Shown here: piece after piece, positions 3,397 to 17,478 of the stretch
How positions within the stretch are numbered: position 1 is the stretch's first letter
How the letters are laid out: each line of letters starts with the position of its first letter
Origin: Chloroflexi bacterium UBA4733
Lineage (GTDB): Bacteria; Chloroflexota; UBA4733
NCBI GenBank assembly: GCA_002404055.1
Contig: DHIZ01000410.1
Span: 936 to 18,413 of the forward strand
Length of the DNA stretch: 17,478 nucleotides
Direction: 5' to 3'
Notes under the pieces: generated by a model
The model's database searches: none
The model's input: the letters and a program-made list of their open reading frames with translations, nothing else
What the model was told of the DNA's origin: nothing
Position numbers and translations under genes: made by a program

Positions 3397-4215
3397 TCAC
3401 GGCTTCGCAGGAGTCTTCGCGCCGCCATCGGAGGGCTGGCTACTCTGCAACTCGCTCTTATATTTGTCGGCTTGTTGCTGCAAGTTATCGAGTACCAACT
3501 TCGGAGCGAAGCCGAAGATGGCGGCGATCACCAGATCAAACGGGTACAGCGACAGGTCGTACATCTCGGAGAGCGGGCGTAATGCGAGGCTCCCACCCTG
3601 CGAACTGCTTGTCGATGTAGCGGCGGCCGTCCCGGCGCTGCCGGCTCTGCCGGTCGTTGCGGCAGGGCTGACAGCGGTGCTGGTAGGGGTGCTGTTAGGG
3701 GTCATGGCCGCGACGTGATAGGACATCGGGTTGAAGCTGACGGTGACATAGCCCGTCAGCAACACGCCGATTACGGCGGCGATCCCCGAGACCACCGGCG
3801 TAATCAGCACGCGCGCGTTCGTCAGGCCGTAATCTTCGATGGCCGTTACGGCCGCACTGCCGGTATACAAGCGGGAGAAGAGCCCGACGCCCGCGCCCAC
3901 GACGTAGACGGCGGCCGCGCCGACAAGGGCCGATCGTGGCGCACTTGCCGCGATGACCGTCGCCAGCAGGAGCAGCGTCGCGAGAGCAGCAGAGAACCCG
4001 ATCATCAGGAGCTGACCCGCCAACCGGCGCAGCCCGACATGGCGATCATTGCGATACTGCTCGATCGCGATTCTGACCGTCCGCAAGCTTGTCCGGGCGT
4101 TCGCCACGGCGCGGTCAGCCTCGTCGGTGTCTGATGGAGACGTCTGTCGTCCAGCGGCTGGGCCGATGATCCACCCGCTGCAGGCGCGAATCACGGCATT
4201 GCTGGCGATCACCAC
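3397..4215 (-). CDS. Unknown multi-pass membrane protein, C-terminal part of a frameshifted gene
   Basis: No function recognised. As an independent frame it opens at a GTG at 4215 that overlaps the stop of the preceding frame. That start would cut through a membrane helix: the same frame reads sensibly back to about 4320 as a charged stretch (ERRAADLRGWEKRLRLVA) followed by a full hydrophobic helix (IAPVILLCWGVFNLVVIA), with no start codon available there. It is therefore read here as the second part of one gene. Seen further on: a charged helical stretch (DEADRAVANARTSLRTVRIA), four hydrophobic segments (starting near QLLMIGFSAALATLLLLAT, ALVGAAAVYVVGAGVGLF, VLITPVVSGIAAVIGVLLTG and FDLVIAAIFGFAPKLVLDNL), a Ser/Thr/Ala/Pro-rich linker, and a C-terminal LQQQADKYKSELQSS helix. 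The gene converges with lspA. Confidence 0.55.
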   Translation of the reverse strand: MVIASNAVIRACSGWIIGPAAGRQTSPSDTDEADRAVANARTSLRTVRIAIEQYRNDRHVGLRRLAGQLLMIGFSAALATLLLLATVIAASAPRSALVGAAAVYVVGAGVGLFSRLYTGSAAVTAIEDYGLTNARVLITPVVSGIAAVIGVLLTGYVTVSFNPMSYHVAAMTPNSTPTSTAVSPAATTGRAGSAGTAAATSTSSSQGGSLALRPLSEMYDLSLYPFDLVIAAIFGFAPKLVLDNLQQQADKYKSELQSSQPSDGGAKTPAKP

Positions 4216-5183
4216 GAGGTTGAAGACCCCCCAACACAGCAGGATGACCGGCGCGATTGCCGCGACGAGACGAAGCCGCTTTTCCCAGCCGCGGAGATCG
4301 GCGGCGCGCCTCTCGACTGCGCGTTGGATCCTCCCGCTGACGTGGTGCTGGAAACCACCGATACGGTGGGCTTGGCAGCGCTGCTGGACGGAGAGCCAGA
4401 CGTCGGTGGACCAGCGGAGGCGGTGTTGGCCGCCGATCCCGCCGGCGCGGTCCTGTTGGACGTCTGCTCGGATACCCCGGCGGGGCTCGTGACGTACGTG
4501 AGCGCGTTGGCGCTGAGTTGCTTCGCCGCCACCAGGGCGGCAATCGCCGTCTCAATGTCGCGTTGCAGCTCGGCGGCGTTGTCGATGCTGGAACCCGTCA
4601 GGCGCAGGTGATCGTACTGGGCATCGCCCAGCACATCGGTCACCGGTTCCACCGCGATGATGGCCGCCTCCGCCTCATGAAGTCGATCAAAGAGCGCCGG
4701 GTAGTCCGGGGGGGGATCCGGTGGCTCGACCGCCTGTAAAGAACTTGGCTCGGAATAGAGGGGAAGCCCGAGCGCCGTGGCGATGAAGTCGTGGGCGTCC
4801 TGTATCTTGGTGACGGACAGCAGCACCTTTGTGCCGGCCGGAGCATTCTTTGCCCTGTCGATGGTAACGAGCTTATCCTTCAGTTCCGCCAGACGCACCC
4901 GTAACTCGGCGGCGCTGCGAGCGTTTCGGCGCTTCGCCGGGACGTTACCGCCAAACGTGCCGACGACCACAACCAGTACACAGAAGATACCGGCAGCAAC
5001 GAGGCCCCAGACGAGATCCAGCCAATCCGGCAGCGCGGTGGCATCGCCAGAGTGTATTGGAGGCTGAATCAGGACAGAGACGACCGTGCCCAGCGCGGCT
5101 ACGACTGGGATCAAGGGCGAAACGGCTAGCAGATCATCCACCCCACGTCCCATACCATCGCCAATTTTGCTAAGACTGGGCAT
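4209..5183 (-). CDS. Unknown membrane protein, N-terminal part of the same frameshifted gene
   Basis: No function recognised. The ATG at 5183 is chosen over an earlier in-frame start at 5297 because AAGGAGA lies 8 nt upstream; the extra N-terminus looks like random translation. Seen: two membrane segments (about residues 22-40 and 54-78), a basic stretch (AKRRNARS), a helical cytosolic region of about 150 residues (AELRVRLAELKDKLVTIDRA and following), then a Ser/Ala/Thr/Pro-rich low-complexity linker (about 230-285). The last ~40 residues (Arg/Ser/Cys-rich, ending GGSSTSW) look out of frame. One missing base between about 4290 and 4335 would join this linker to the charged helix and membrane segment of the following frame, giving a protein of nearly 600 residues. 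Confidence 0.55.
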   Translation of the reverse strand: MPSLSKIGDGMGRGVDDLLAVSPLIPVVAALGTVVSVLIQPPIHSGDATALPDWLDLVWGLVAAGIFCVLVVVVGTFGGNVPAKRRNARSAAELRVRLAELKDKLVTIDRAKNAPAGTKVLLSVTKIQDAHDFIATALGLPLYSEPSSLQAVEPPDPPPDYPALFDRLHEAEAAIIAVEPVTDVLGDAQYDHLRLTGSSIDNAAELQRDIETAIAALVAAKQLSANALTYVTSPAGVSEQTSNRTAPAGSAANTASAGPPTSGSPSSSAAKPTVSVVSSTTSAGGSNAQSRGAPPISAAGKSGFVSSRQSRRSSCCVGGSSTSW

Positions 5184-5705
5184 CGGTATCTCTCCTTTGC
5201 ACGCCATCGTTCCCGTCACAGAGCAGTGTGCGTGTTTCCGCAATGTGCATCGACGATCGAAGAAAGCATCGCACGATGATGGATGATAGTGTGGCATTGG
5301 TTGGGAGCAAGTGCAAGGGAGGTGTCCGTCCTCGGGGCCTTTTCACCTCTTGAGACCGTCGGAGAGGACGAGGCGGACGGCCAAGGGGCCCGCCAGGCTC
5401 AGGAACGGATGGTAGCGGCGATATGGCGCAGTGGCAGTAGCACCTGAGGGCGGTGCTGATCGTCAGCAAAGTCAGAACGCTGATTGCCGTATGGGGCGAT
5501 TCTAACTGAGTACTGAAGCGTGCCGGGACCGGTTGTAACCGCGGGCAGCCGGACGATGATGCTGCAGGAAACCGACCCGGTAGCGCCGTTTACGGTGCTT
5601 TGCGGGTACCCGCCGCAGCGGGTGGATAGCCTGCTCGTTTACGGGCAGGCGATCATCCGGCGCCGCGCAACCTTCCGGCCACCCGACCGCGCTCCTCCCC
5701 GTGGC
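5184..5705. other. Gene-poor interval of about 520 bp
   Basis: This lies between the ribosome site of the membrane-protein gene and the stop codon of the Clp-repeat gene. Short open frames in it have no recognisable domain and no good ribosome site. No tRNA fold was found by eye. A perfect 12-bp palindrome GCGGGTACCCGC lies at 5602-5613. The promoter of the membrane-protein gene should lie at about 5190-5300, but no clear -35/-10 pair stands out. Confidence 0.4.
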
Positions 5706-7913: not shown

Positions 7914-8785
7914 GCAAGCCGTTCCAGCGCTCCTGGCGCTGCCGGGACCTGACGCTGCCGATTGGCCGGCGAACGCTGCTCATGGCAATCATCAACGTCA
8001 CGCCGGACTCCTTCTCCGGCGATGGACTGGATCACCATGTCGGCGCCGCGGTGGCCGCCGGACTGCAAGCGGTAGCGGATGGCGCCGACACGGTGGACAT
8101 CGGCGGTGAAAGCACCCGGCCGCGTAGCCAGCCAGTGCCGGAAGAGGAAGAACTCTCGCGCGTCATCCCGGTCATCAGGCAACTCACCCGCCAGACGGCG
8201 ATCCCCGTTTCGGTTGACACCAGTAAGCCGCGCGTCGCCGCGGAAGCGCTGGCGGCCGGCGCTCGTGTCGTTAACGACGTCAGCGGGCTAGCACTGGGCG
8301 ACGAGCTCGCTCGCCACGCGGCGGCGGCTGGGGCCGGACTCGTGCTGATGCGTTTCCCCGGCTTCCCGTTCAACCGTCCGCACTCCCGACCTCCCGATGC
8401 CGGTGATCTCATCGCCGAGGTGCGCGCCGCCCTCGCGGCGAGCGCGGCGCGAGCGCTGGCCGTCGGCGTGCTGCCGGAGTGTATTGTGCTCGACCCCGGC
8501 TTCGGCTTCGGTCTGCTGGCCCCCGACAGCATCCGGTTGTTGCGCCGCCTGGCGGAACTGCGTGAGCTGGGCTATCCCCTGTTGGCCGGCGTCTCCCGCA
8601 AAGGCTTCACCGGGCAGCCCGACCAGCTACCGGTCGCTGAACGCCAGTGGGGCACTGCCGCAGCGCACACCCTCGCCATTGTTAACGGCGCCAATCTGCT
8701 GCGCGTGCACGATGTCACCGCCGCCCGCCGTGTAGCCGCCTTCACCGACCTTGTAGTGCGCGATGGGGACGTTGCCGATGGCTGA
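7910..8785 (+). CDS. folP: Dihydropteroate synthase
   Basis: Condenses 6-hydroxymethyl-7,8-dihydropterin diphosphate with p-aminobenzoate to dihydropteroate; it is the sulfonamide target. Seen: MAIINVTPDSFSGDG (residues 25-39), DIGGESTRPRS (63-73), PVSVDTSKPRV (99-109), VVNDVSGL (120-127), DPGFGFG (195-201), AGVSRKGF (226-233, Lys231), and LLRVHDV (263-269). Deviations: the usual MHMxGxP after the fourth strand is LMRFPGFP (146-153), and the Lys/Thr/Asn of the usual GIGFGKTxxxN segment are not present (GFGFGLLAPDS). The start is TTG at 7910, overlapping the rluD stop (TTGA), so translational coupling is likely. The 3' end overlaps folK by 8 nt. Confidence 0.93.
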   Translation: MSKPFQRSWRCRDLTLPIGRRTLLMAIINVTPDSFSGDGLDHHVGAAVAAGLQAVADGADTVDIGGESTRPRSQPVPEEEELSRVIPVIRQLTRQTAIPVSVDTSKPRVAAEALAAGARVVNDVSGLALGDELARHAAAAGAGLVLMRFPGFPFNRPHSRPPDAGDLIAEVRAALAASAARALAVGVLPECIVLDPGFGFGLLAPDSIRLLRRLAELRELGYPLLAGVSRKGFTGQPDQLPVAERQWGTAAAHTLAIVNGANLLRVHDVTAARRVAAFTDLVVRDGDVADG

Positions 8786-9335
8786 CCTCTGGCTCAGCCT
8801 GGGCAGCAACCTGGGCAACCGCGAAGCAACGCTGCGCGACGCCTTGCGAGCGCTAAAGGCACGTGGCCTGGCCATCCGCGCTGTCTCCTCCTTGTACGCC
8901 ACCGCGCCGCAGGGAATCACCGACCAGCCGGAATTCCTCAACTGCGTGGCACGAGTACAGACGGACCTTCCTGCCAGGGAGGCGCTTCGCCAGTGTCAGG
9001 GGGTCGAAGCCTTGTACGGCCGCGAACGAACGCTACGCTGGGGGCCACGCACGCTGGATATCGATCTCCTCTTTTATGACAATCTCGTGAGCACCGATGC
9101 GGAACTTGAGTTGCCCCACCCACGGCTGTGGGAACGAGCGTTCGTCCTCGCTCCGCTGTTGGAACTCTGGCCTGATCTCACGACACCCGGCGGGGAACCG
9201 GCCCGTGATGTGCTCCAGCGCCTGAGCATGAGCCAGGGTGTGCGGCGTTGGGGGACGGTCGTTATCGGCGGGTGTGCGGTCGGCAACTTTAGGGTAGTGG
9301 TGAAGCATAATACGTTTGAAGATCGCGGAAGTTGA
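8778..9335 (+). CDS. folK: 2-amino-4-hydroxy-6-hydroxymethyldihydropteridine pyrophosphokinase
   Basis: Transfers pyrophosphate from ATP to 6-hydroxymethyl-7,8-dihydropterin, making the FolP substrate. Seen: LWLSLGSNLGNRE (residues 4-16), SSLYATAPQGITDQPEFLNC (37-56), and the Mg-binding motif RWGPRTLDIDLLFYDN (87-102) with D94 and D96, then LPHPRLWERAFVLAPLLEL. The ATG at 8778 has GGGG 8 nt upstream; an in-frame ATG at 8763 is possible. Residues after about 160 (VVIGGCAVGNFRVVV...) do not resemble the family and run 47 nt into the convergent PIN gene, so the original stop may have been lost when the downstream sequence changed. folB and folE are not nearby. Confidence 0.94.
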   Translation: MADLWLSLGSNLGNREATLRDALRALKARGLAIRAVSSLYATAPQGITDQPEFLNCVARVQTDLPAREALRQCQGVEALYGRERTLRWGPRTLDIDLLFYDNLVSTDAELELPHPRLWERAFVLAPLLELWPDLTTPGGEPARDVLQRLSMSQGVRRWGTVVIGGCAVGNFRVVVKHNTFEDRGS

Positions 9336-9723
9336 TGAAGTCAAGGTACCGCCGCGCCAAGTACCGCGTCAATGAGGCATCGTCAGTGAGGACCAAATAG
9401 TGCTTGCGGGTCGCGCGATGGAGTATACCCGCGTCGGTAAGGCCCAGCAGAACAAACTCAGGTTCCGCGCAAATCAGTTTCGCTGGCCGGTGCTGCTCAT
9501 CAATTACAAATCGACTCGAAGGGTCCGCCAGCATGGACGCCATGACCTCGAAAAATCCCTGGTGCCTGTCACCGTGTAATCTTCCAGCGAGATTGCTAAT
9601 TTCCGTCAGTATATGGGGCGTCACAGTGACTTGAGAGAGGTTCTGTAAGAGTTGAAGGAGCGCCTCATAATCTATGACAGCAAACGACTCGGTCCTCTTG
9701 AACCGGGAAACTGCTATTCGGAC
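9289..9723 (-). pseudogene. PIN-domain protein lacking its N-terminus, fused to the end of the CRISPR array
   Basis: PIN domains are Mg-dependent ribonucleases, often toxins. This gene keeps a segment I recognise from a PIN family: RFKRTESF, VTPHILTEISNLAGRL with the conserved Glu, LLGLTDAGIL with Asp, and YLVLTDDASLTRYL, ending FINFRDL. The family normally begins about 20 residues earlier with a strand ending in the first catalytic Asp (DTN-type); that part is missing. At that point the DNA becomes a CRISPR repeat remnant (9704-9723). The frame stays open through the array to an ATG at 9834 inside a spacer, so a chimeric 181-residue product is possible but would lack one active-site acid. 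No proper ribosome site was found. Its 3' end overlaps folK tail to tail. Most likely inactive. Confidence 0.7.
9704..9723 (-). repeat. Decayed partial CRISPR repeat at the PIN junction
   Basis: The 20 bases CGGGAAACTGCTATTCGGAC match the 3' part of the plus-strand repeats at 19 positions plus a one-base gap. The repeat ends exactly 37 nt before the next repeat, the same as the spacer length, so it was once the array's terminal repeat. The other half, including GTTTCAAT, is absent and replaced by PIN coding sequence. Confidence 0.75.
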
Positions 9724-9760
9724 CAGCCGTAGCGGGGGTCGCGCGACTGCGGCACCAGAG

Positions 9761-9946
9761 GTTTCAATCTCTAATTCGGGATAACTGCTGTTCGGACCCC
9801 TCCAGGGCGTCGTCGCTGGCGTCCTCCGCAGCATGTTTCAATCCCTCATTCGGGATAACTGCCATTCGGACTTGCCGCCCTGGTTGCGGCTGTGCAGCAT
9901 CGACTTCGGGTTTCAATCCCTCATTCGGGATAACTGCCATTCGGAC
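9761..9946 (-). CRISPR. Short CRISPR array, three 37-nt repeats and two spacers (plus a decayed unit beyond)
   Basis: Repeats lie at 9761-9797, 9835-9871 and 9910-9946, with spacers at 9798-9834 (37 nt) and 9872-9909 (38 nt). The last two repeats are identical, beginning GTTTCAATCCCTC and ending CCATTCGGAC on the plus strand. The first has four substitutions (including TCTCTAATT and CTGTTC). A spacer-length gap of 37 nt (9724-9760) leads to a more decayed partial repeat. The minus strand of the repeat ends in ATTGAAAC, the typical 5' handle of mature crRNA, and decay increases towards low coordinates. Both indicate transcription on the minus strand, the same direction as the cas genes, with the leader at the high-coordinate side. 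No spacer target is recognised. Confidence 0.95.
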
Positions 9947-10218
9947 CGCTCCCGAACAGTCCATCAGGAATGCCTTCGGATCGCGCAAGAATGCCTCGTG
10001 GTGGGGCGACGCGGAAAATTGCGAGCATCGGCGCTGAAGACACTGGGGTGCGGCGGTTTCAACCGCCGTGGCGAGAGTATCGGTTGTCAAGGTGCGTGCG
10101 CCCCAGAGGCGACCGGTCCATCACCCGGCTGCGAGCGTCCCCGCGTGGCCGAGTCGGCGCTCCGATCCTCGCGGCGAGGCGCTGGTACGAAGTATAGCGA
10201 ACGCGGCGCAACCGCGCC
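9947..10218 (-). promoter_or_regulatory. Presumed CRISPR leader between cas2 and the array
   Basis: These 272 bp separate the cas2 stop from the leader-side repeat and hold no credible gene. They are not AT-rich. Seen: a perfect hairpin CGGCGGTT-TC-AACCGCCG at 10051-10068, and a direct repeat GAATGCCT at 9968-9975 and 9989-9996, spaced 21 bp (two helical turns), 22 and 43 bp from the array edge. A leader role is inferred from position and crRNA orientation. No promoter pair is clear; read-through from cas2 is possible. Confidence 0.5.
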
Positions 10219-10545
10219 TCAGACGACATAGGCCACCGCTTCCACGGGTGGTGCGCCGCCGATCGCTACCACGCGACTCTCGCATGCGGCGCAGACGCGA
10301 TAGATGCGTACATGGTCCTGCGCCGGCCGGATCTCCCGGGCGAGACGCGCCGCCAACTCCACCTGCTGGCGCTTCGTGAGATAACACTCGAAGACGCTGT
10401 ACTGGACCCAGGCGCCGAAACCGCTCAGCAGCCGGTGGACCCGCCCCCGGCGCCGATCATCGGGGATGTCGTAGCTGACCAGCACGAACTCGGTGTCGGT
10501 ATGGCAGCCGGCCACGACCGGAGCGCCGCTCGCCGCGCGCTGCAC
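10219..10545 (-). CDS. cas2: CRISPR-associated Cas2
   Basis: Cas2 is the small ferredoxin-fold subunit that bridges two Cas1 dimers in the spacer-integration complex. Seen: FVLVSYDIPDDRRRGRVHRL with the conserved Asp of the first strand, then LLSGFGAWVQYSVFECYLTK, and RIYRVCAACESRV near the end. The GTG at 10545 is chosen because GGGAGGT lies about 8 nt upstream; it gives 108 residues, slightly long for the family because of about 19 residues before the first strand. Upstream codons of the open frame lie inside cas1 and are not used. It follows the cas1 stop by 16 nt and is the last cas gene before the array. Confidence 0.95.
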   Translation of the reverse strand: MQRAASGAPVVAGCHTDTEFVLVSYDIPDDRRRGRVHRLLSGFGAWVQYSVFECYLTKRQQVELAARLAREIRPAQDHVRIYRVCAACESRVVAIGGAPPVEAVAYVV

Positions 10546-10561
10546 GTCCCCTACCTCCCGC

Positions 10562-11578
10562 TTAGCGCACCGTGAACGGCCGGTAGGCCGGCGTCTCGCC
10601 GAGCAGGGCCTTGCCAAGCAGGCGCGCCTGCAACTCCAAGTAGCGCCGGTACGTGACCCGATACCCGAAGACCGGATGCTCGATCTCCTGGTTGAGCCGG
10701 GCCTCGAATTGCTCCAAGAAGGCCCGGCGGCCCGGTTCGTTGAGGCGACAGCTGCCCAGCTCCGTGACGAAGTGGTCCGCCCCGAGGACCCGCCGATTGA
10801 CGCACGCGAGGACCACCGAATCGGCGATGATCGGGCGGAACTCCTCCATCAGGTCTAGGGCGACCGCCGGCCGCCCGTACTGCGCCGCGTGGAGGTAGCC
10901 GACGTAGGGATCCAGACCCGCCGTCTGGGCGGCCGCGATCACCTTCTGGGTGAGCAGCGCGTAGCCGAAGCTGAGCATGGCGTTCACGGGGTCCGGCGGC
11001 GGGCGCCGGAGGCGGCGACTGAAGCCGAGCGGCTGCCGCAGGAGATGGGCGAAGACGCCGAAGTAGGCGGCCGAGGCCGCCCCCTCCACCCCGAGCAGGC
11101 TCGGCACGCTCTCCACGCCTTCGGCTGCCGTGATGCCCCGCTTGAGCGATTCGGCCGCCGGCAACAGATCCGCCGACGCGAGCGTGCGCTGCTGCCGGAG
11201 CAGGAGGGTGCGCATGTTGCTCAACTTGCCGGAGACGAAGCGCCGGGCCAACGCCAGGCGCTGGGCGGGGTCATGGTGGGCGCGGTGCTGGGCGATGCGC
11301 AGGTGGACGTGGCGGGAGGGCTCGGGGAGCAGCATGCCCCGGTACTGGCCGTGGGCGCCGAGGTAACAGACGGGGATGGCCCGCTCCAGCAACGCGCCGA
11401 TGGCGGAAGCGGTCAGCGTCACCTCCCCCAGCACCACCACATCGTCGAGCTTGAGCAGCGGGATCTCCACTGTGCGCTTCTCTCGCCCGGTACGACGGTC
11501 TTCCGGCACCTGGACCTGTAAGCAATCTCCGTCGAGGCGGACCAGGGAGCGCGGCTCGGTGAGGTACAACGTTGGCAT
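10562..11578 (-). CDS. cas1: CRISPR-associated endonuclease/integrase Cas1
   Basis: Cas1 is the metal-dependent integrase that inserts new spacers at the leader-repeat junction. Seen: the N-terminal beta domain (MPTLYLTEPRSLVRLDGDCL, residues 1-20), then the helical domain with the expected acidic/His triad: E165 in VEGAASAAYF, H230 in PYVGYLHAAQYGR, and D242/E245 in ALDLMEEFRP. Length 338 residues is typical. The ATG at 11578 shares one base with the cas4 stop (TGATG), and GGAGGAG lies just upstream. All catalytic residues are intact, so the adaptation module could be active. Confidence 0.97.
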   Translation of the reverse strand: MPTLYLTEPRSLVRLDGDCLQVQVPEDRRTGREKRTVEIPLLKLDDVVVLGEVTLTASAIGALLERAIPVCYLGAHGQYRGMLLPEPSRHVHLRIAQHRAHHDPAQRLALARRFVSGKLSNMRTLLLRQQRTLASADLLPAAESLKRGITAAEGVESVPSLLGVEGAASAAYFGVFAHLLRQPLGFSRRLRRPPPDPVNAMLSFGYALLTQKVIAAAQTAGLDPYVGYLHAAQYGRPAVALDLMEEFRPIIADSVVLACVNRRVLGADHFVTELGSCRLNEPGRRAFLEQFEARLNQEIEHPVFGYRVTYRRYLELQARLLGKALLGETPAYRPFTVR

Positions 11579-12255
11579 CAAGTCTCCTCCCGCCGTGAAG
11601 TCCCATCCACCTCGTGGTCCGGGTCCCCTTCCGCCGACCAGGCGCTGGCCACGGCGGGCGCGCCCATTGCCTTGAGCGCGAGCACTTCGCGGGGCAGGCA
11701 GATGGGCGCGAGGCTGCAGTCGCGCCACTTGGCGGGCCGGTCGATCGGGTCCGGCATGCGCCCGGCCGCCAGCAGGTCCCGCATGGCCGTGAGCGTGGCC
11801 ATAGTCTGCGCGCGCAGTTCCGGCGTGAAAGGGACCGCTTCGCGCCGCCGATTGCCGTGGTAGAAGATCGCCCCTTCGGGCACGGGCCGGCCCGTGCGCT
11901 CCTCCAGGCAGAGCGCCTGGGCGCAGAGCTGGACGTGGTCGTTGGTCCAGCGCCCCATCCGGCCCCGCTTGTACTCCACCGGCCGCCATACGCCGTGGGC
12001 TTCCTCGATCAGATCAGCGAAGCCGGCGATGCGCAGGCGCTCCGAGTAGAGGTAGACGCGACGCAGGACCGCCTCACCATCGACAGTGCCTCCGCCGCCG
12101 AGATCGACCCGCTCGTGCTGCAGGAGGCCCTCCAGCACGTATTCGTTGCGCACCATCTCGCCCTGGACGAACTCGATCCAGAAGCGACGCGGACAGTAGA
12201 GGAAGGCGTTGAGGTGAGAAATGGGCAGGTACTCCGGTAGCTCGAATTCGGTCAT
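11578..12255 (-). CDS. cas4: CRISPR-associated exonuclease Cas4
   Basis: Cas4 trims pre-spacers and helps select PAM-bearing ends. It is a RecB-family nuclease that usually holds a 4Fe-4S cluster on four cysteines. Seen: CPRRFW with Cys21, LLQHERVD with His47, GFADLIE with Asp81, VEYKRGR with Glu94/Lys96, and QLCAQALCLEE with Gln109. The C-terminal cysteine group reads KWRDCSLAPICLP: Cys180 and Cys186 are present, but the position three before Cys180, usually the second cluster ligand, is Trp177. The last ~35 residues are a polar tail. The ATG at 12255 has GAGGAGG upstream and overlaps the cas6 stop by 4 nt (ATGA). Confidence 0.95.
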   Translation of the reverse strand: MTEFELPEYLPISHLNAFLYCPRRFWIEFVQGEMVRNEYVLEGLLQHERVDLGGGGTVDGEAVLRRVYLYSERLRIAGFADLIEEAHGVWRPVEYKRGRMGRWTNDHVQLCAQALCLEERTGRPVPEGAIFYHGNRRREAVPFTPELRAQTMATLTAMRDLLAAGRMPDPIDRPAKWRDCSLAPICLPREVLALKAMGAPAVASAWSAEGDPDHEVDGTSRREET

Positions 12256-13208
12256 GGTCGCCTCCTCGTCTGCCCCATGCCCTGCGCCGTCTTGTAGCCG
12301 GTCCCGCCGTAGCAGGCGAAGTCGGCCAGGGCGTTGAGTTGCCACAACCCTCGTTCGGTGGTGGCACGAAACTCGTAGCGGACCCAGCCGGTAAAGCCCT
12401 TCTGAGGGAAGCGACCGTAGTCCAAAGTCACGGTTCGGAGTTCGTAGTCCGCCACCAGACCCCTGCCGGCGACATCGGCGACCGCCCGGCCGTCTATCCG
12501 TAGCGGCGGCGGCGCGAAGGCATTCCACTTGCGCGCCCAGCTCTCCCATACCCAACGGGGCTGCGGAAAGAGTTCGATGCGTTTCCGATCATCCCGGCTC
12601 GGACTGATGACGCCTGCCGTCTCGCTGGCGCCCCCATTGTCCCCGGCGCGCTCGCCCAGCGCCACAGCGATGGTCGCAACACCGTTGGTCGCCGCTCTTT
12701 GCACCCCGTCACCCATGCTGAAGGCGGTGGGGGTGGCAAATTCTACTGTAATCCCTGTCACAGCGCCGGCCTGAGCGAGCAGGCCAGCGAAGGTCGCCCA
12801 GCCGGTCCAGCCGCTGCTGTCAGGCACGAAGCTCACGCGCGTGAGGGCGAACTCGGCGTCGTGGAGCCGCCAGATGGGGCTCCCACCACCAGGCAGACAC
12901 CGCTGGACGAAGGCATGGAAGACACGGCGGTCGAGCACGGTGCAGCGGAGCGCCACCGTCGGGCCCGGCTGGCGCCCATTCTCCCCGAGCACGGCGACGG
13001 TGAAGGGGCGAAGGGCATTGGGATGGTGCAACTCGTCGGTCAAGGAAGGATTGACCGCCTGCAGCCAGCGCAGGAACGCGGCGTGGACCTGGCGCTGATA
13101 GTCACCACTCGGCCGAGGTCCGGATCGCCAGAGGAGGTCGAGAGTGCAGGCCCACAACTCGGCCTCACCGCCGGGTGTAACGGAAGAGACGCCGTGCAGT
13201 ACGCTCAT
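12252..13208 (-). CDS. cas6: CRISPR repeat endoribonuclease Cas6
   Basis: Cas6 cuts the pre-crRNA within each repeat, leaving the 8-nt ATTGAAAC handle seen in the array. Seen: an N-terminal RAMP strand (AELWACTLDLLWRSG), QVHAAFLRWL with His42 as a candidate catalytic His, NALRPFTVAVL, a second RAMP domain with KGFTGWVRYEF, and the C-terminal glycine-rich loop ACYGGTGYKTAQGMGQTRR (about residues 299-317). Length 318 residues is somewhat long; residues about 165-205 are a variable insert. The ATG at 13208 overlaps the upstream stop (ATGA); a TTG three codons earlier is less likely. The glycine loop and position leave little doubt. Confidence 0.92.
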   Translation of the reverse strand: MSVLHGVSSVTPGGEAELWACTLDLLWRSGPRPSGDYQRQVHAAFLRWLQAVNPSLTDELHHPNALRPFTVAVLGENGRQPGPTVALRCTVLDRRVFHAFVQRCLPGGGSPIWRLHDAEFALTRVSFVPDSSGWTGWATFAGLLAQAGAVTGITVEFATPTAFSMGDGVQRAATNGVATIAVALGERAGDNGGASETAGVISPSRDDRKRIELFPQPRWVWESWARKWNAFAPPPLRIDGRAVADVAGRGLVADYELRTVTLDYGRFPQKGFTGWVRYEFRATTERGLWQLNALADFACYGGTGYKTAQGMGQTRRRP

Positions 13209-13888
13209 ATAATCCAACCTGGATCTTGGGAGGCATCGGCCCGCCGCTGTGCCGCACTGGCTGGACGCAAGCGAGCGGCCGCGAAAAACATGGCGCTACC
13301 CATGACCACGAGATAGTTCCGGGCGGTACCGTCGACGAACGTGACCTCCAGGTCCCGCCCAATCCACCCTTCGGAGCGGCAGAGCTGTCGCAACTTGCCG
13401 GCGAGTGGGGTATCCGCGCGCGCCGCAAAGAACGGCACGTACTGGTCGCGAAACGCACGGATGAGCACGGGCGGGAGGGGGACGCCCTCGGCATCCAGAT
13501 TGAGATCGCACGCGGCGGCCTCCTGATAGCAGTAGCGGTCTTCCCACGCCGATCGGATCATGTCACCCTGATGCAGCCGGAAGCGCACGGTCGGACGCTG
13601 CTCTGGCGGGCGCATCCGGGTGAGTACACAGAAGAGCCGGTCTTCCGGCTCCGGGCGAAGGGGCGTCAGTATTGCCGGGAGCGTTGCCTGCCAGTCAGCC
13701 AGTTGGTCGAACCACTCTGCTTCGTAGTTTTGGACGACGTGGAGCGCATCGTAGCGGAGGATATCGTTGCTGGACAGGTCGTGCCGCGGGTCGTAGATCA
13801 GGGCGGCCGGCGGGTCGAAGCTCTCGCGAAAGCTGAAGCGCGCTCTGGTGATCGCGTGGTCTTCACGCTGCTTGCCGAGCCACTGCAA
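13205..13888 (-). CDS. Divergent Cas5-like protein in the Csc1 position (uncertain)
   Basis: The gene sits between csc2 and cas6, where type I-D loci carry csc1 (Cas5), the subunit that holds the crRNA 5' handle. I do not recognise clear Csc1 sequence. Seen: a strand-like start (ITRARFSFRESFDPPAALIY), the helical stretch RYDALHVVQNYEAEWFDQLA, and later strands (PTVRFRLHQGDMIR, RDLEVTFVDGTARNYLVVMG). The start is unclear. TTG at 13888 is given here; GTG at 13960 would overlap csc2 by 98 nt. A GTGA overlap at 13866, matching the junction style of the neighbours, is one base out of frame and would give MKTT before ITRARF if a base were restored. Assignment is by position only. Confidence 0.5.
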   Translation of the reverse strand: MQWLGKQREDHAITRARFSFRESFDPPAALIYDPRHDLSSNDILRYDALHVVQNYEAEWFDQLADWQATLPAILTPLRPEPEDRLFCVLTRMRPPEQRPTVRFRLHQGDMIRSAWEDRYCYQEAAACDLNLDAEGVPLPPVLIRAFRDQYVPFFAARADTPLAGKLRQLCRSEGWIGRDLEVTFVDGTARNYLVVMGSAMFFAAARLRPASAAQRRADASQDPGWII

Positions 13889-14564
13889 GAACTCTGGCCA
13901 GTTCGTTGATGAGGTCTGGCGGCGAACGCAGGATGTTGGCGATGACGTAGGCCAGTTCACCTGGCATCACGTCCTTCAACGTCTCCATGTCCAGGAAGTG
14001 AGCTTCCGGCTTGACGTACTCCTCCTCGTAGATGCTGGTCGACGCGGCGCCGGTGATCGGATTGCGCATCGTGCCGTTGTCGAACGTGGCATTGCCGGTG
14101 CGCTTCCCAAGAACCTGCGCCGTGCCATCCAGGGAAAAGGCGTCGCTGGTCATCACCCGGGACTTCTGCGCCCCGCCGCCGCCGACGGCAAAGCCATACA
14201 GGAGACAATCGATGCAGTGTTCGCAAGGAGCATTGGTGTTGATGGCGCAGGGCAGCTTCGTTTTCGGGCTCACGTGCAGCATCTCCACCTCGCGCAGAAC
14301 TTCACGGCCTGCACGTCGCTCGACCGCCGTCTGCTTCCGCTTGCTCATAACCACGCGGCGGATCACCTCGGCGCGGGTACGTCCGGCCCGTACGGTCTCT
14401 TTGACCAGACCTTCACCGCTGCCCTCCGTGCGAAAAATCGTTTCCGACTCCGTGAGTCGCACGATAACTAAGGTCGTGTAGCGCCCGAGTGGGAAGTTCT
14501 GGTAGGTGGGGACGAGCAGACGACGCTCGGCATACCCGTCAAGTGTTGGAAGGATCGTTGCCAT
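13863..14564 (-). CDS. csc2: Type I-D CRISPR Cas7 backbone protein Csc2
   Basis: Csc2 (Cas7d) polymerises along the crRNA spacer as the backbone of the type I-D complex. Seen: the N-terminal FPLGRYTTLVIVRLTES (residues 24-40) and IFRTEG, VVMSKRKQTAVERRAGREVL (71-90), a zinc-type cysteine cluster (C106, C114, C117, C120) leading into LLYGFAVGGGGAQKSRVMTS (121-140), DAFSL, then NGTMRNPITG and LAYVIANILRS. At 233 residues it is shorter than the family as I know it (about 300-350): the usual segment after NILR, which carries a Tyr-Gly-Ala turn and more strands, is not present in any frame. The ATG at 14564 follows the upstream stop by 3 nt, with AAGGAAG as ribosome site. Confidence 0.9.
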   Translation of the reverse strand: MATILPTLDGYAERRLLVPTYQNFPLGRYTTLVIVRLTESETIFRTEGSGEGLVKETVRAGRTRAEVIRRVVMSKRKQTAVERRAGREVLREVEMLHVSPKTKLPCAINTNAPCEHCIDCLLYGFAVGGGGAQKSRVMTSDAFSLDGTAQVLGKRTGNATFDNGTMRNPITGAASTSIYEEEYVKPEAHFLDMETLKDVMPGELAYVIANILRSPPDLINELARVLAVARQAA

Positions 14565-14567
14565 GAG

Positions 14568-15677
14568 TTAAAGCTTCCTTTCTGGTTGCGCGAGCATCTC
14601 CACGCGCTCGTCCTCGCGCAACGCCTGCTCTTGCTGCTTGAGGGGAATGCACTGGCGGATGTAGAAGAGGTAGGCGCTCCGCACCAGCCGGGTGCGGCCG
14701 AGGAGGCGATTGACATCGCCGTGATGCGCCTCGGCGAGCACGCCATCAAAGAAGAGAGTGACGTACTGCTCGACCGCGTCGTGTTTCGTCCGCCCGGGCT
14801 TGAAACCGGGGCTCGCGGTGCGCTCCAGGTACGCGAAGATGCCGAGCGCATCGTCTTGCATCGCTGTCGCCAGTTCATGCACCATGTCACCGCTGAAGCC
14901 GGCAAACCAGAGCCGTTGCTTCAGGGCATGCAGATGGCCCAAGCGCTCGAGCAGCCCTTGCAGCGCGGCTGCATTGAGGGAGCCGCTCGCCCCGGGCGCA
15001 CCGTCTGCGGTACCCGAGAGGAGCCAGCCGAGGTTGCGCGGCATCCCTTCGACGCACAGTGCCACCTCTGGCGTCGTGCTCAGGTCGAGGATGGGGACGG
15101 GGAGCCGCGAGAGGAGGGCACGGCAACCGAAAAAGCGCGCCAGGATGACAGCCGTTTCCAACGCTTGTAGGAACTGCTCACCGTACCCTTGGCCACACGC
15201 ATGGATTGGCAAGACGGGCGTGTTGCCGAGCGCCTCGGCCAGTTCAGGCAAAGCAACGCCCATCGTGCCGCCCGGTACGCCCTGGATGGCGATGCTGTCG
15301 CCGGCGACCCAGTCGCGGAACACCGCATCGGCCTTGATGAAAAAGGAACCAAGATCCTGGCTCCGGAGCCGCTGCACTTCGGCGTACCAGGCCGTCAGCA
15401 GCGACCTGGTAAAAAAGCTGTAGGGGAACAGGTGGAGATAGAAGGTCGTCTGCTCCGTCCCCTGTCTGTCCCGGTGACTCTTCCAGGCAAGCCGTTCGAG
15501 GATGAACTGGGTGCGACAGACGGGACAGATATTGCGCTTCGGCTCACGGCTGTCGCCGCCTTCCAGCCGATTGGAGAAGATCTGCACGCCAATACTGGGG
15601 GGCGCGTTGGCAGCCATCCACTCTTGGGCCGGCGCGGCGCTGCTGCACACACAGCACTGCCGGTGCTCGCCGTTCAC
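14568..15677 (-). CDS. cas10d: Cas10d (Csc3), C-terminal part: zinc finger and palm-like region
   Basis: This is the second part of the type I-D large subunit, which recognises the PAM and stabilises target DNA. Seen: a treble-clef-like finger with Cys8/Cys11 and Cys51/Cys54 (RQCCVC and NICPVC), followed by a region with FYLHLFPYSFFTRSLL, then a helical C-terminus (SAYLFYIRQCIPLKQQEQAL). As annotated it starts at GTG 15677, which overlaps the stop of the preceding frame (GTGA) and could permit coupled re-initiation. However, the same frame reads sensibly back to about 15742 (KALDVSGTAVPAAHYAAHLR), which argues that it is the downstream half of one frameshifted gene of about 910 residues. Confidence 0.85.
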   Translation of the reverse strand: MNGEHRQCCVCSSAAPAQEWMAANAPPSIGVQIFSNRLEGGDSREPKRNICPVCRTQFILERLAWKSHRDRQGTEQTTFYLHLFPYSFFTRSLLTAWYAEVQRLRSQDLGSFFIKADAVFRDWVAGDSIAIQGVPGGTMGVALPELAEALGNTPVLPIHACGQGYGEQFLQALETAVILARFFGCRALLSRLPVPILDLSTTPEVALCVEGMPRNLGWLLSGTADGAPGASGSLNAAALQGLLERLGHLHALKQRLWFAGFSGDMVHELATAMQDDALGIFAYLERTASPGFKPGRTKHDAVEQYVTLFFDGVLAEAHHGDVNRLLGRTRLVRSAYLFYIRQCIPLKQQEQALREDERVEMLAQPERKL

Positions 15678-17299
15678 GTACCGGCGGAGGTGCGCGGCAT
15701 AGTGCGCGGCCGGGACGGCAGTCCCGGAAACGTCGAGCGCCTTTGCAAGTAGCGGTCGAGCGCGGCGGGCTCGCCCGTGCCGTGTGCGGCCGGGACGGCC
15801 TCAGCGTTTGCCGGTTGCAGGTGCGCCAGGTCGGTCAGGATGGCGTCGTGCAGATCATCCATCGACAGGGCACAGTCGGCGGCGAGGAAGTACCCCCAAC
15901 GGTAGGCATTTACCGCTCTGTACGCTGGCCAGAGATCTTCCGGCAGCCCGAGCAGCGCGTAGACGCGCGTTTCGCCGTTGCGGACCTTCGCGGCCTTGAG
16001 CAGCGTCGTCGCGTGCTTATTGAGGTAGTTGCGATACGCCATGGCCAGTTCACCCAGGCGGAGCGTTTCCGGTTCAGCGGGGATGATGGTGCCCGTCGCC
16101 AGCCGATCGACGACGTAGGCGCGGCTGGCAGCGTCCAGTTTGCCTTTGCTTAGGGCGACTTGCAGATCGGTAGTAATATCTGCGCTCCGTTGTGCAAGCC
16201 AGTCCGCCTTGTACGGTTTGGCCTGCACCCGGCTGAAGATCACCCCGAAGACGTCAGCCGATAGCGCTCCACTTTCCAGCGCGGCGCTATCCACGGCGAT
16301 GCCCCACGGGGCATTCCTGACGAATTTTCCTATGTCATCCTGCTGCAAGCTGGCCACCCGGTTTCGCACGCGTGCGGCGACGTTCGCCATCTGGCCTGCA
16401 TTCCACACAAACGGGCTGTCGCTAGGCACCAGGTAGGCCACGCCGTCAGGGTAATACAGGAGGTCCACGGCGTGCGCGGCATCGCGCAACTGGGCGACGG
16501 CCGCATTGTGGATCAGGTTGGTGAGGAGACCGCGTTGCTCGACGACGCGATGGGTCAGCCAGCGGTGAGGTCTGTCGGCCAGGAAGAGGTTGATCTTGTC
16601 CAGGGCGTTTGCCTTGCTCCTGGTTTCAGCCAAGGTGTGAGAGGTTGCCAGCGTATCCACGGCATACATCAGCCATCCCAGACGCTCGACACGCTCCCAG
16701 CCCAGCTGGAAACGACGGTGCTGCGTCCGGTCAAGGCCGGTCGCCGTAATGGCCAGGTTTCCCTGGTGCAGGTGCGCAAGGGCGACGATATCCGCCAGGT
16801 AGTCACGCCAGGTTGGGAAGAAGCGCTCAGCCTCTAAGCGTCCCAACTCGGCCAGAATGTTGGCCTCTGAGGCTTGATCGGCATAGGTATGCCGGCCGCC
16901 GGCCCATCGGTTGTAGGGGGGAACCTTGTTCAAGTCGTGGACGACGCAGGCGCAATAGAGGCAACGGCGCTCGACGTCCGGCAGCGAGACGAGCGCATTC
17001 AGCCGCTCAAAGAGCAGCACCAAGTCGAGGACGTGCCCAAAATAGCTCTGCCCAGCCTTACCTCCCCACTGGATGATGGTCTTGTACGTACGCAACTGCC
17101 GGTTGACCAACTCGCGGAAAAAGTCGCCAGTGACATCGTGCGTCTCCCAGCGCAACTCCAAGCGCAGATCCGCCCGAGATACGGCGTTGCTCACCGCGTC
17201 GGCGAGAAGGTCTCCCTGGGCGGTCTGATCGCCCGGCTCCGGGGTGGAACGCATCGCCGTATCTCGGGGAGTCTTCAATAGCCGTCGGGTGGTAGGCAC
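15674..17299 (-). CDS. cas10d: Cas10d (Csc3), N-terminal part with HD nuclease domain
   Basis: In type I-D systems the HD nuclease sits on Cas10d rather than Cas3. Seen: H89 in YFGHVLDLVLLFERL and the HD pair H121-D122 in CACVVHDLNKVPPYNRW, followed by ALAHLHQGNLA with further histidines; then a long helical region including RAYVVDRLATG. GTG at 17299 is chosen because AGGAGG lies 6 nt upstream, giving 541 residues; the open frame beyond it runs into the transposon end. The last ~23 residues (RRSTFPGLPSRPRTMPRTS...) look out of frame. Restoring one base in the short A run at 15742-15744 would read ALDRYLQ-KALDVSG straight into the zinc-finger half. It is the first cas gene visible; cas3 is not upstream within the window. 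Confidence 0.88.
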   Translation of the reverse strand: MPTTRRLLKTPRDTAMRSTPEPGDQTAQGDLLADAVSNAVSRADLRLELRWETHDVTGDFFRELVNRQLRTYKTIIQWGGKAGQSYFGHVLDLVLLFERLNALVSLPDVERRCLYCACVVHDLNKVPPYNRWAGGRHTYADQASEANILAELGRLEAERFFPTWRDYLADIVALAHLHQGNLAITATGLDRTQHRRFQLGWERVERLGWLMYAVDTLATSHTLAETRSKANALDKINLFLADRPHRWLTHRVVEQRGLLTNLIHNAAVAQLRDAAHAVDLLYYPDGVAYLVPSDSPFVWNAGQMANVAARVRNRVASLQQDDIGKFVRNAPWGIAVDSAALESGALSADVFGVIFSRVQAKPYKADWLAQRSADITTDLQVALSKGKLDAASRAYVVDRLATGTIIPAEPETLRLGELAMAYRNYLNKHATTLLKAAKVRNGETRVYALLGLPEDLWPAYRAVNAYRWGYFLAADCALSMDDLHDAILTDLAHLQPANAEAVPAAHGTGEPAALDRYLQRRSTFPGLPSRPRTMPRTSAGT

Positions 17300-17372
17300 T
17301 ACTTTCCTCCTAAGCATGTAACCACAAGTGTGGCACGGAATCTGCCGATGGGTAGATTGGGAGGTGACCGCT

Positions 17373-17478
17373 ATGTTGTTGGTGGAACTGACGGAGGAGC
17401 AGCGGGCGGAGGTGGAGCGGGTGAGCCGGCAGGCGGTGGGGCGAGTGGCCTTGCGGGCGCACATGGTGCTGCTGAATG
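17373..17478 (+). mobile_element. IS630-like transposase, first 35 codons, runs off the window
   Basis: The frame begins at ATG 17373 with GGGAGGTGA about 7 nt upstream and reads MLLVELTEEQRAEVERVSRQ, then AVGRVALRAHMVLLN. This resembles the N-terminal helix-turn-helix of IS630-family transposases, which typically start with a TPEQRAxLE helix and a RARIVLL segment. Only the start is in the window, so the catalytic DDE part and the right end are not seen. It is divergent from cas10d. The 73 bp between the two starts (17300-17372) must contain the left end of the element and any cas promoter; a small palindrome CCACA-AG-TGTGG lies at 17322-17333. The terminal inverted repeat could not be defined. 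Confidence 0.65.

Follow-up and report, generated by a model that had tools for sequence, protein, structure and literature searches.

A half repeat joined to a truncated PIN-like gene at the old end of a type I-D CRISPR array, most likely the scar of a deletion

The 17,478-nt stretch of DNA analyzed here, called the window throughout, carries a minus-strand cas operon with a CRISPR array directly downstream, and at the far end of that array lies the remnant of a PIN-like gene (Table 1). Judged by its genes, the locus is a type I-D CRISPR-Cas system: Cas1d and Csc2 matched TIGR04093 and TIGR03157 above their cut-offs, and Cas10d was recognized by the PADLOC model PDLC01588. A plasmid of Candidatus Chlorohelix allophototropha (NZ_CP128402.1, Chloroflexota) encodes Csc2, Cas6, Cas4, Cas1, and Cas2 followed by an array, all in the same order and direction as in the window and with 37-nt repeats that likewise end in ATTGAAAC. 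All five of these Chlorohelix proteins matched the window by tblastn, Cas1d at 52% identity and Cas4 at 50% (over 12237 to 11635), and no match at E 0.01 was found in the window for Chlorohelix Cas10d, Csc1, or Cas3′. The two loci differ in that the Chlorohelix array has 76 repeats rather than 3.5, Cas10d is one gene there and two open reading frames (ORFs) here, and no PIN gene is annotated behind the array in the stretch of the plasmid that was read.

Table 1. Positions of the array, its flanking gene remnant, and the neighboring genes in the window
Feature	Positions	Strand	Observations
folK ORF	8763-9335	+	PF01288; runs towards the PIN remnant, with overlapping 3′ ends
PIN-like protein remnant, Arg42 to C terminus (P0002 numbering)	9289-9705	-	79% identity to P0002
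Open frame joining S2-R1-S1-R0 to the PIN remnant	9289-9834	-	181 aa; cluster P0001, 6 contigs
Junction zone	9703-9708	-	TCCCG from the repeat adjoins CGG, the PIN Arg42 codon
R0, truncated leader-distal repeat	9704-9723	-	first 21 transcribed repeat positions, with a 1-nt deletion and one mismatch
S1, oldest spacer kept	9724-9760	-	37 nt
R1, degenerate repeat	9761-9797	-	37 nt, 4 differences; TTA replaces TGA in the chimeric frame
S2, spacer	9798-9834	-	37 nt; begins with the ATG of the 181-aa chimeric ORF
R2, consensus repeat	9835-9871	-	37 nt
S3, spacer	9872-9909	-	38 nt
R3, consensus repeat, leader proximal	9910-9946	-	37 nt, identical to R2
Presumed leader, cas2-array gap	9947-10218	-	position and orientation as in the Candidatus Chlorohelix type I-D locus
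cas2 ORF	10219-10617	-	PF09827, TIGR01573; true start probably inside the ORF
cas1, type I-D	10562-11575	-	inside ORF 10562-11989; TIGR04093 above cut-off
cas4 ORF	11578-12555	-	TIGR00372 above cut-off; true start probably inside the ORF
cas6	12252-13217	-	PF10040 above cut-off; TIGR01877 below cut-off
csc2/cas7d, short	13863-14564	-	PF18320 and TIGR03157 above cut-offs
cas10d/csc3, two ORFs	14568-15677 and 15674-17464	-	both ORFs: TIGR03174 below cut-off, PADLOC PDLC01588

The two Cas10d/Csc3 ORFs overlap by 4 nt, one matching positions 9 to 406 of the 859 in PDLC01588 and the other positions 454 to 703, an arrangement that may be natural or may stem from a frameshift or an assembly error. 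A gene for Cas3′ would be expected upstream of cas10d, past the end of the window. The Csc2/Cas7d ORF (233 aa) covers only about the first 195 of some 300 model positions, and an ORF in the place of Csc1/Cas5d (13205 to 13960) matched no Pfam, NCBIfam, or PADLOC model.

Read on the minus strand, the repeat is GTCCGAATGGCAGTTATCCCGAATGAGGGATTGAAAC. Because the Chlorohelix type I-D array follows cas2 and runs in the same direction, the left end of the window's array, near 9704, was taken by analogy as the old, leader-distal end; the orientation of the array, with the leader beside cas2 and ATTGAAAC at the 3′ end of the repeat, matches that of the Chlorohelix locus. The predicted hairpin of R1 is weak (−1.4 versus −7.8 kcal/mol for R2), and that of R2 is unexceptional, with 27 of 200 shuffled sequences folding equally well. 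No sigma-70-type promoter-like site was found between 9250 and 10250, and Rfam gave no match at gathering score. Neither the first 20 nt of S1, S2, and S3 nor a 27-nt stretch of the repeat had an exact match in viral contigs, and S1, the one spacer compared with phages and plasmids, matched none of them. Within the window itself, S3 matches 18 of 19 nt at positions 4543 to 4525, inside ORF 4209 to 5297, in the spacer half away from the seed.

On the side opposite the leader, the last whole repeat (R1) is followed at a distance of 37 nt, one spacer length, by a truncated one. This sequence, R0, is the counterpart of positions 17 to 37 in the plus-strand repeat: 19 bases match, one differs, and there is a single one-base gap. 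Apart from the mismatch, this is how an initial annotation had described R0, which is equally similar to R1 and R2. Its alignment score of 30 was reached by none of 5,000 simulated local 60-mers (maximum, 24) and by none of 34,310 real 34-nt stretches, which overlapped and were taken from both strands of the window outside 9690 to 9946 (best, 18). A score of 30 did occur somewhere, on either strand, in 2 of 300 simulated whole windows, so the case is carried by place and spacing, which together identify R0 as the remnant of a repeat, far beyond local chance. In the sense of the transcript, R0 keeps the start of the repeat and has neither the 3′ arm of the hairpin nor the repeat 3′ end. In type I-D processing that 3′ end gives an 8-nt handle, as described in an excerpt of PMC10212523, so the usual Cas6 cut should not be expected at R0. 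The 1-nt deletion and the mismatch in R0 may date from before the event that truncated it or may have arisen since.

Immediately beyond R0 begins the PIN-like remnant. The ORF that contains it (9289 to 9834) had 19 relatives besides itself at E ≤ 1e−3, and a profile search gave 3,250 at E ≤ 1e−8; the first 19 and 107 new sequences from the best 120 of the 3,250 made up an alignment of 126 relatives. The nearest relative, P0002 (179 aa), is 79% identical over its residues 40 to 178 by tblastn, an alignment of 139 codons with neither gap nor stop that starts at window position 9711. The tblastn alignment with another relative, P0003, starts five residues earlier, at 9726, and passes through R0 with few identities: the translation of R0 (LVRIAVSR) shares 3 of 8 residues with P0003 (LERDYIPR), one of which is Arg42 itself. 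We take these identities across R0 as chance, yet they blur the edge of the PIN part. The conserved part begins at Arg42 (codon 9705 to 9703), which defines the edge of similarity that the initial annotation had proposed to locate with intact homologues, and about 41 residues are missing by P0002 numbering, about twice the roughly 20 that it had estimated.

The name PIN was assigned from the sequences of relatives. The window protein matched no Pfam, NCBIfam, or PADLOC model. In their sources, several homologues carry the name PIN or FCF1-like, the homologue P0005 matched PF01850 below the cut-off (E 7.7e−4), and of two matches among solved structures, both weaker than E 0.01, the better was the rRNA-processing protein fcf1 (E 0.09); these names and two weak matches are what suggests a PIN domain. 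The PIN motif consists of four acidic residues, including a first Asp after strand 1. This first catalytic Asp lies in the missing part and is absent from the window ORF, as claimed when the truncation was first noticed, and the other three acids are intact (E78, D134, and D151). Among the 126 aligned relatives, Asp is found at P0002 position 23 in 124, Glu at position 76 and Asp at position 132 in all, and Asp at position 149 in 116, and only the first of the four positions has lost its acid in the window. The two relatives without the first Asp, P0017 and P0018, are both short and come from contigs of 547 and 1,706 nt; P0017 was probably cut by the end of its contig, and P0018 starts just after the RFKRT position. 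At most these 2 of the 126 could be relatives that start at the same residue as the window copy with no array before them. Structure models point the same way: pLDDT values fall below 50 over residues 1 to 26 and 33 to 44 of the modeled window ORF, and the corresponding region of an intact relative is modeled with confidence as the strand and helix bearing the Asp.

No PIN relatives were found in viral contigs or phages; 12 were in genome contigs, none of them labeled Chloroflexota, and 5 were in plasmids. Their neighborhoods vary, with one constant. In all 14 related loci examined (12 genome loci and 2 plasmid loci, the latter from two of the five plasmid matches), the PIN gene is immediately preceded by a partner ORF. 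The partner encodes 84 to 136 aa (57 aa in L008) and overlaps the PIN gene by 4 nt in 11 of the 14 loci. A script with a leave-one-out profile test recovered the partner in 13 loci, weakly in L011 and partially in L008, and in L001 it was recognized by eye, the partner profile including one wrong ORF from that locus. Together the two genes may form a toxin-antitoxin or accessory defense cassette. Cassettes with the same PIN family include MIC7113_RS32615/RS32620 of Allocoleopsis (partner of about 100 aa, PIN protein of about 165 aa), where the plasmid-borne PIN gene is 41.7% identical to P0002; compared with these two-gene units, the window copy lacks both the partner and the N-terminal 41 residues. 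Neither was found elsewhere in the window, the best match being E 0.093 for the partner by tblastn and E 0.033, away from the array, for a profile of the PIN N-terminal piece.

The cassettes in L014 (2181 to 2980) and L015 (2208 to 3004) lie on two cyanobacterial plasmids. In L014 a DUF499 gene is one gene away and a DUF1156 gene matching HmaB of PADLOC follows directly, and neither the partner nor the PIN protein of this locus matched a PADLOC model; in L015 a DUF499 gene is also near, and the stretch read contains no DUF1156 gene. In two proteobacterial metagenome-assembled genomes (MAGs), an ORF lies just downstream of the cassette (L005, 2611 to 3359; L007, 9681 to 10426), which from its sequence we take to be truB-like.

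The half repeat and the PIN homology break at the same bases, and no filler sequence is seen at the join. With TCCCG as the last bases from the repeat and CGG as the first of the PIN part, the breakpoint can be placed only to within about 5 nt; read from the window side only, these would be the bases shared by the two parent sequences. That the old end of the array is fused to a truncated PIN gene, as first annotated, is confirmed by the half repeat at spacer distance and the start of homology at the same bases. We regard it as likely that the fusion is the scar of one deletion, reaching from the middle of a repeat to PIN codon 42. A two-gene PIN cassette would have lain downstream of the leader-distal end of the type I-D array in the same direction, and one illegitimate deletion would have joined the two at bases common to the repeat (TCCCG) and the Arg42 codon (CGG). 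It would have taken away the 3′ half of the repeat with whatever repeats and spacers were older, the trailer of the array, the gene for the partner, and PIN codons 1 to 41, leaving an array of 3.5 repeats that ends in a PIN remnant, probably dead. A single deletion would explain the layout because array, partner, and PIN gene would all share one direction (leftwards). Thus, while the fusion stands, the suggestion that the array was deposited into the PIN gene is not needed: a deletion explains the join equally well and in fewer steps, since array and PIN gene read the same way and the partner is missing too. We infer both the single step and the earlier gene order, which was not found in the related genomes examined.

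The same join could have formed in the opposite way, if an insertion of the CRISPR-cas block, alone or as part of a large segment, had split a PIN cassette near folK, leaving the PIN N terminus and the partner upstream of the cas operon and outside the window. The varied neighborhoods of PIN relatives indicate that the cassette can stand alone, and its third-position GC content (59%, versus 71 to 91% in six other genes measured) may mark the PIN part as foreign to its surroundings. An insertion, however, would have to end in the middle of a repeat, and neither the N-terminal piece nor the partner was found within the window, which ends inside cas10d. We therefore consider an insertion unlikely. 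An artificial join of two unrelated molecules by the assembler is hardly credible, even though the window may come from a metagenome: the junction-spanning ORF (cluster P0001) occurs on 6 contigs, the longest of 15,646 nt, although these may share one sample or include the window's own contig, and a join of at most about 5 shared nt would be short for an assembly overlap.

If the fusion arose by deletion, the type I-D system itself might have made it. A leader-distal spacer, since lost, would have targeted the PIN cassette or the flank of the array, and resection by Cas3′/Cas10d followed by end joining would have removed the array end, the partner, and the start of the toxin, so that the system pruned its own memory and a toxin cassette in one event, leaving a fused frame that may be expressed. 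We consider this highly improbable.

The PIN remnant contains no stop, frameshift, or indel. With P0003 as the outgroup, the window copy has 10 unique changes against 8 in P0002, and two further outgroups gave 8 against 6 and 6 against 5. Because the frame is undamaged and the counts of 10 and 8 are so close, the truncation is probably recent. With P0004 as the outgroup, the counts are 12 against 4, a difference compatible with relaxed constraint and with an older event.

Upstream of the join the PIN frame stays open for 45 codons, through R0, S1, and R1, to an ATG at 9834 formed by the first three bases of S2, and the initial annotation was right that it continues into a spacer; the other two frames stop after 21 and 4 codons. 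Because one of three frames is open that far, a fusion would be in frame about one time in three. Had R1 kept the consensus, this frame would contain a TGA where the degenerate R1 has TTA, and the open frame through the array is probably an incidental by-product.

It has also been proposed that the array transcript carries a chimeric PIN reading frame, and in its strongest form this would make the fused ORF a working gene that yields a 181-aa protein from the ATG in S2. Consistent with it are the ATG itself, a GAGGG in R2 upstream of it that resembles a ribosome-binding site, the TTA in R1 in place of TGA, a PIN part free of stops and frameshifts for which three of four outgroups give a rate of change similar to that of P0002, and the occurrence of cluster P0001 on 6 contigs. 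Such a protein would lack the first Asp and its partner, however, and its array-coded part is modeled with low confidence as a 3-residue strand and a short helix, at a place that in an intact relative is confidently modeled as a strand and a helix. An opening of 45 codons occurs in one of the three frames in any case, and no sigma-70-type promoter-like site was found. The frame, which depends on a degenerate R1 and lacks the first Asp, is open as claimed, and its expression as a working gene appears improbable.

Degenerate repeats beside a toxin-like gene in a type I locus also recall CreTA, in which case R1-S1-R0 would be a CreA-like guide, a degenerate mini-array that represses the toxin gene. 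Two degenerate repeats do flank one spacer beside such a gene, and R0 with the adjoining PIN sequence can form a hairpin near the normal place, as 17 of 200 shuffled sequences did equally well. The guide seed comprises positions 1 to 5 and 7 to 11 (an excerpt of PMC8501985), and this pattern of S1 has no second site in the window. The only contiguous 8-nt match to the S1 seed in the window is preceded by GCG, not by the GTN of a PAM, and on these two grounds the CreA-like guide was rejected, with next to no probability left to it. Here, moreover, the repeats on the leader side are normal, and the PIN gene is broken and would encode a protein toxin, whereas CreT is an RNA toxin (an excerpt of PMC9458426).

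Partial or degenerate leader-distal repeats are known and are handled by CRISPRDetect (an excerpt of PMC4869251): it is at their old end that arrays gather altered repeats, deletions, and repeats of which a part is gone. What sets the window apart from the cases in that excerpt is that the missing half is replaced exactly by a gene remnant that breaks at the same bases. No array end fused into a PIN gene was found in the literature searched, as judged by title or the start of the abstract. A fusion to an identifiable gene scar is thus a nice but minor case, and the present one is a real and well-supported scar of a fairly ordinary kind, most likely left by a deletion. It offers a base-level example of loss at the old end of an array, with array end and gene broken at the same bases. 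If the system had cut the scar itself, array shortening would be linked to the loss of neighboring toxin cassettes; otherwise the locus is a tidy, ordinary deletion scar and a caution against annotating 9289 to 9834 as a PIN toxin.

Elsewhere in the window, PanC has its best named match in a protein from a Chloroflexota MAG (86% identity). Downstream of panC lies a palindrome (1687 to 1793) of two 53-nt arms, 89% complementary and 1 nt apart, with a further 18-nt direct copy at 1662 to 1679; it is perhaps a REP- or MITE-like element.
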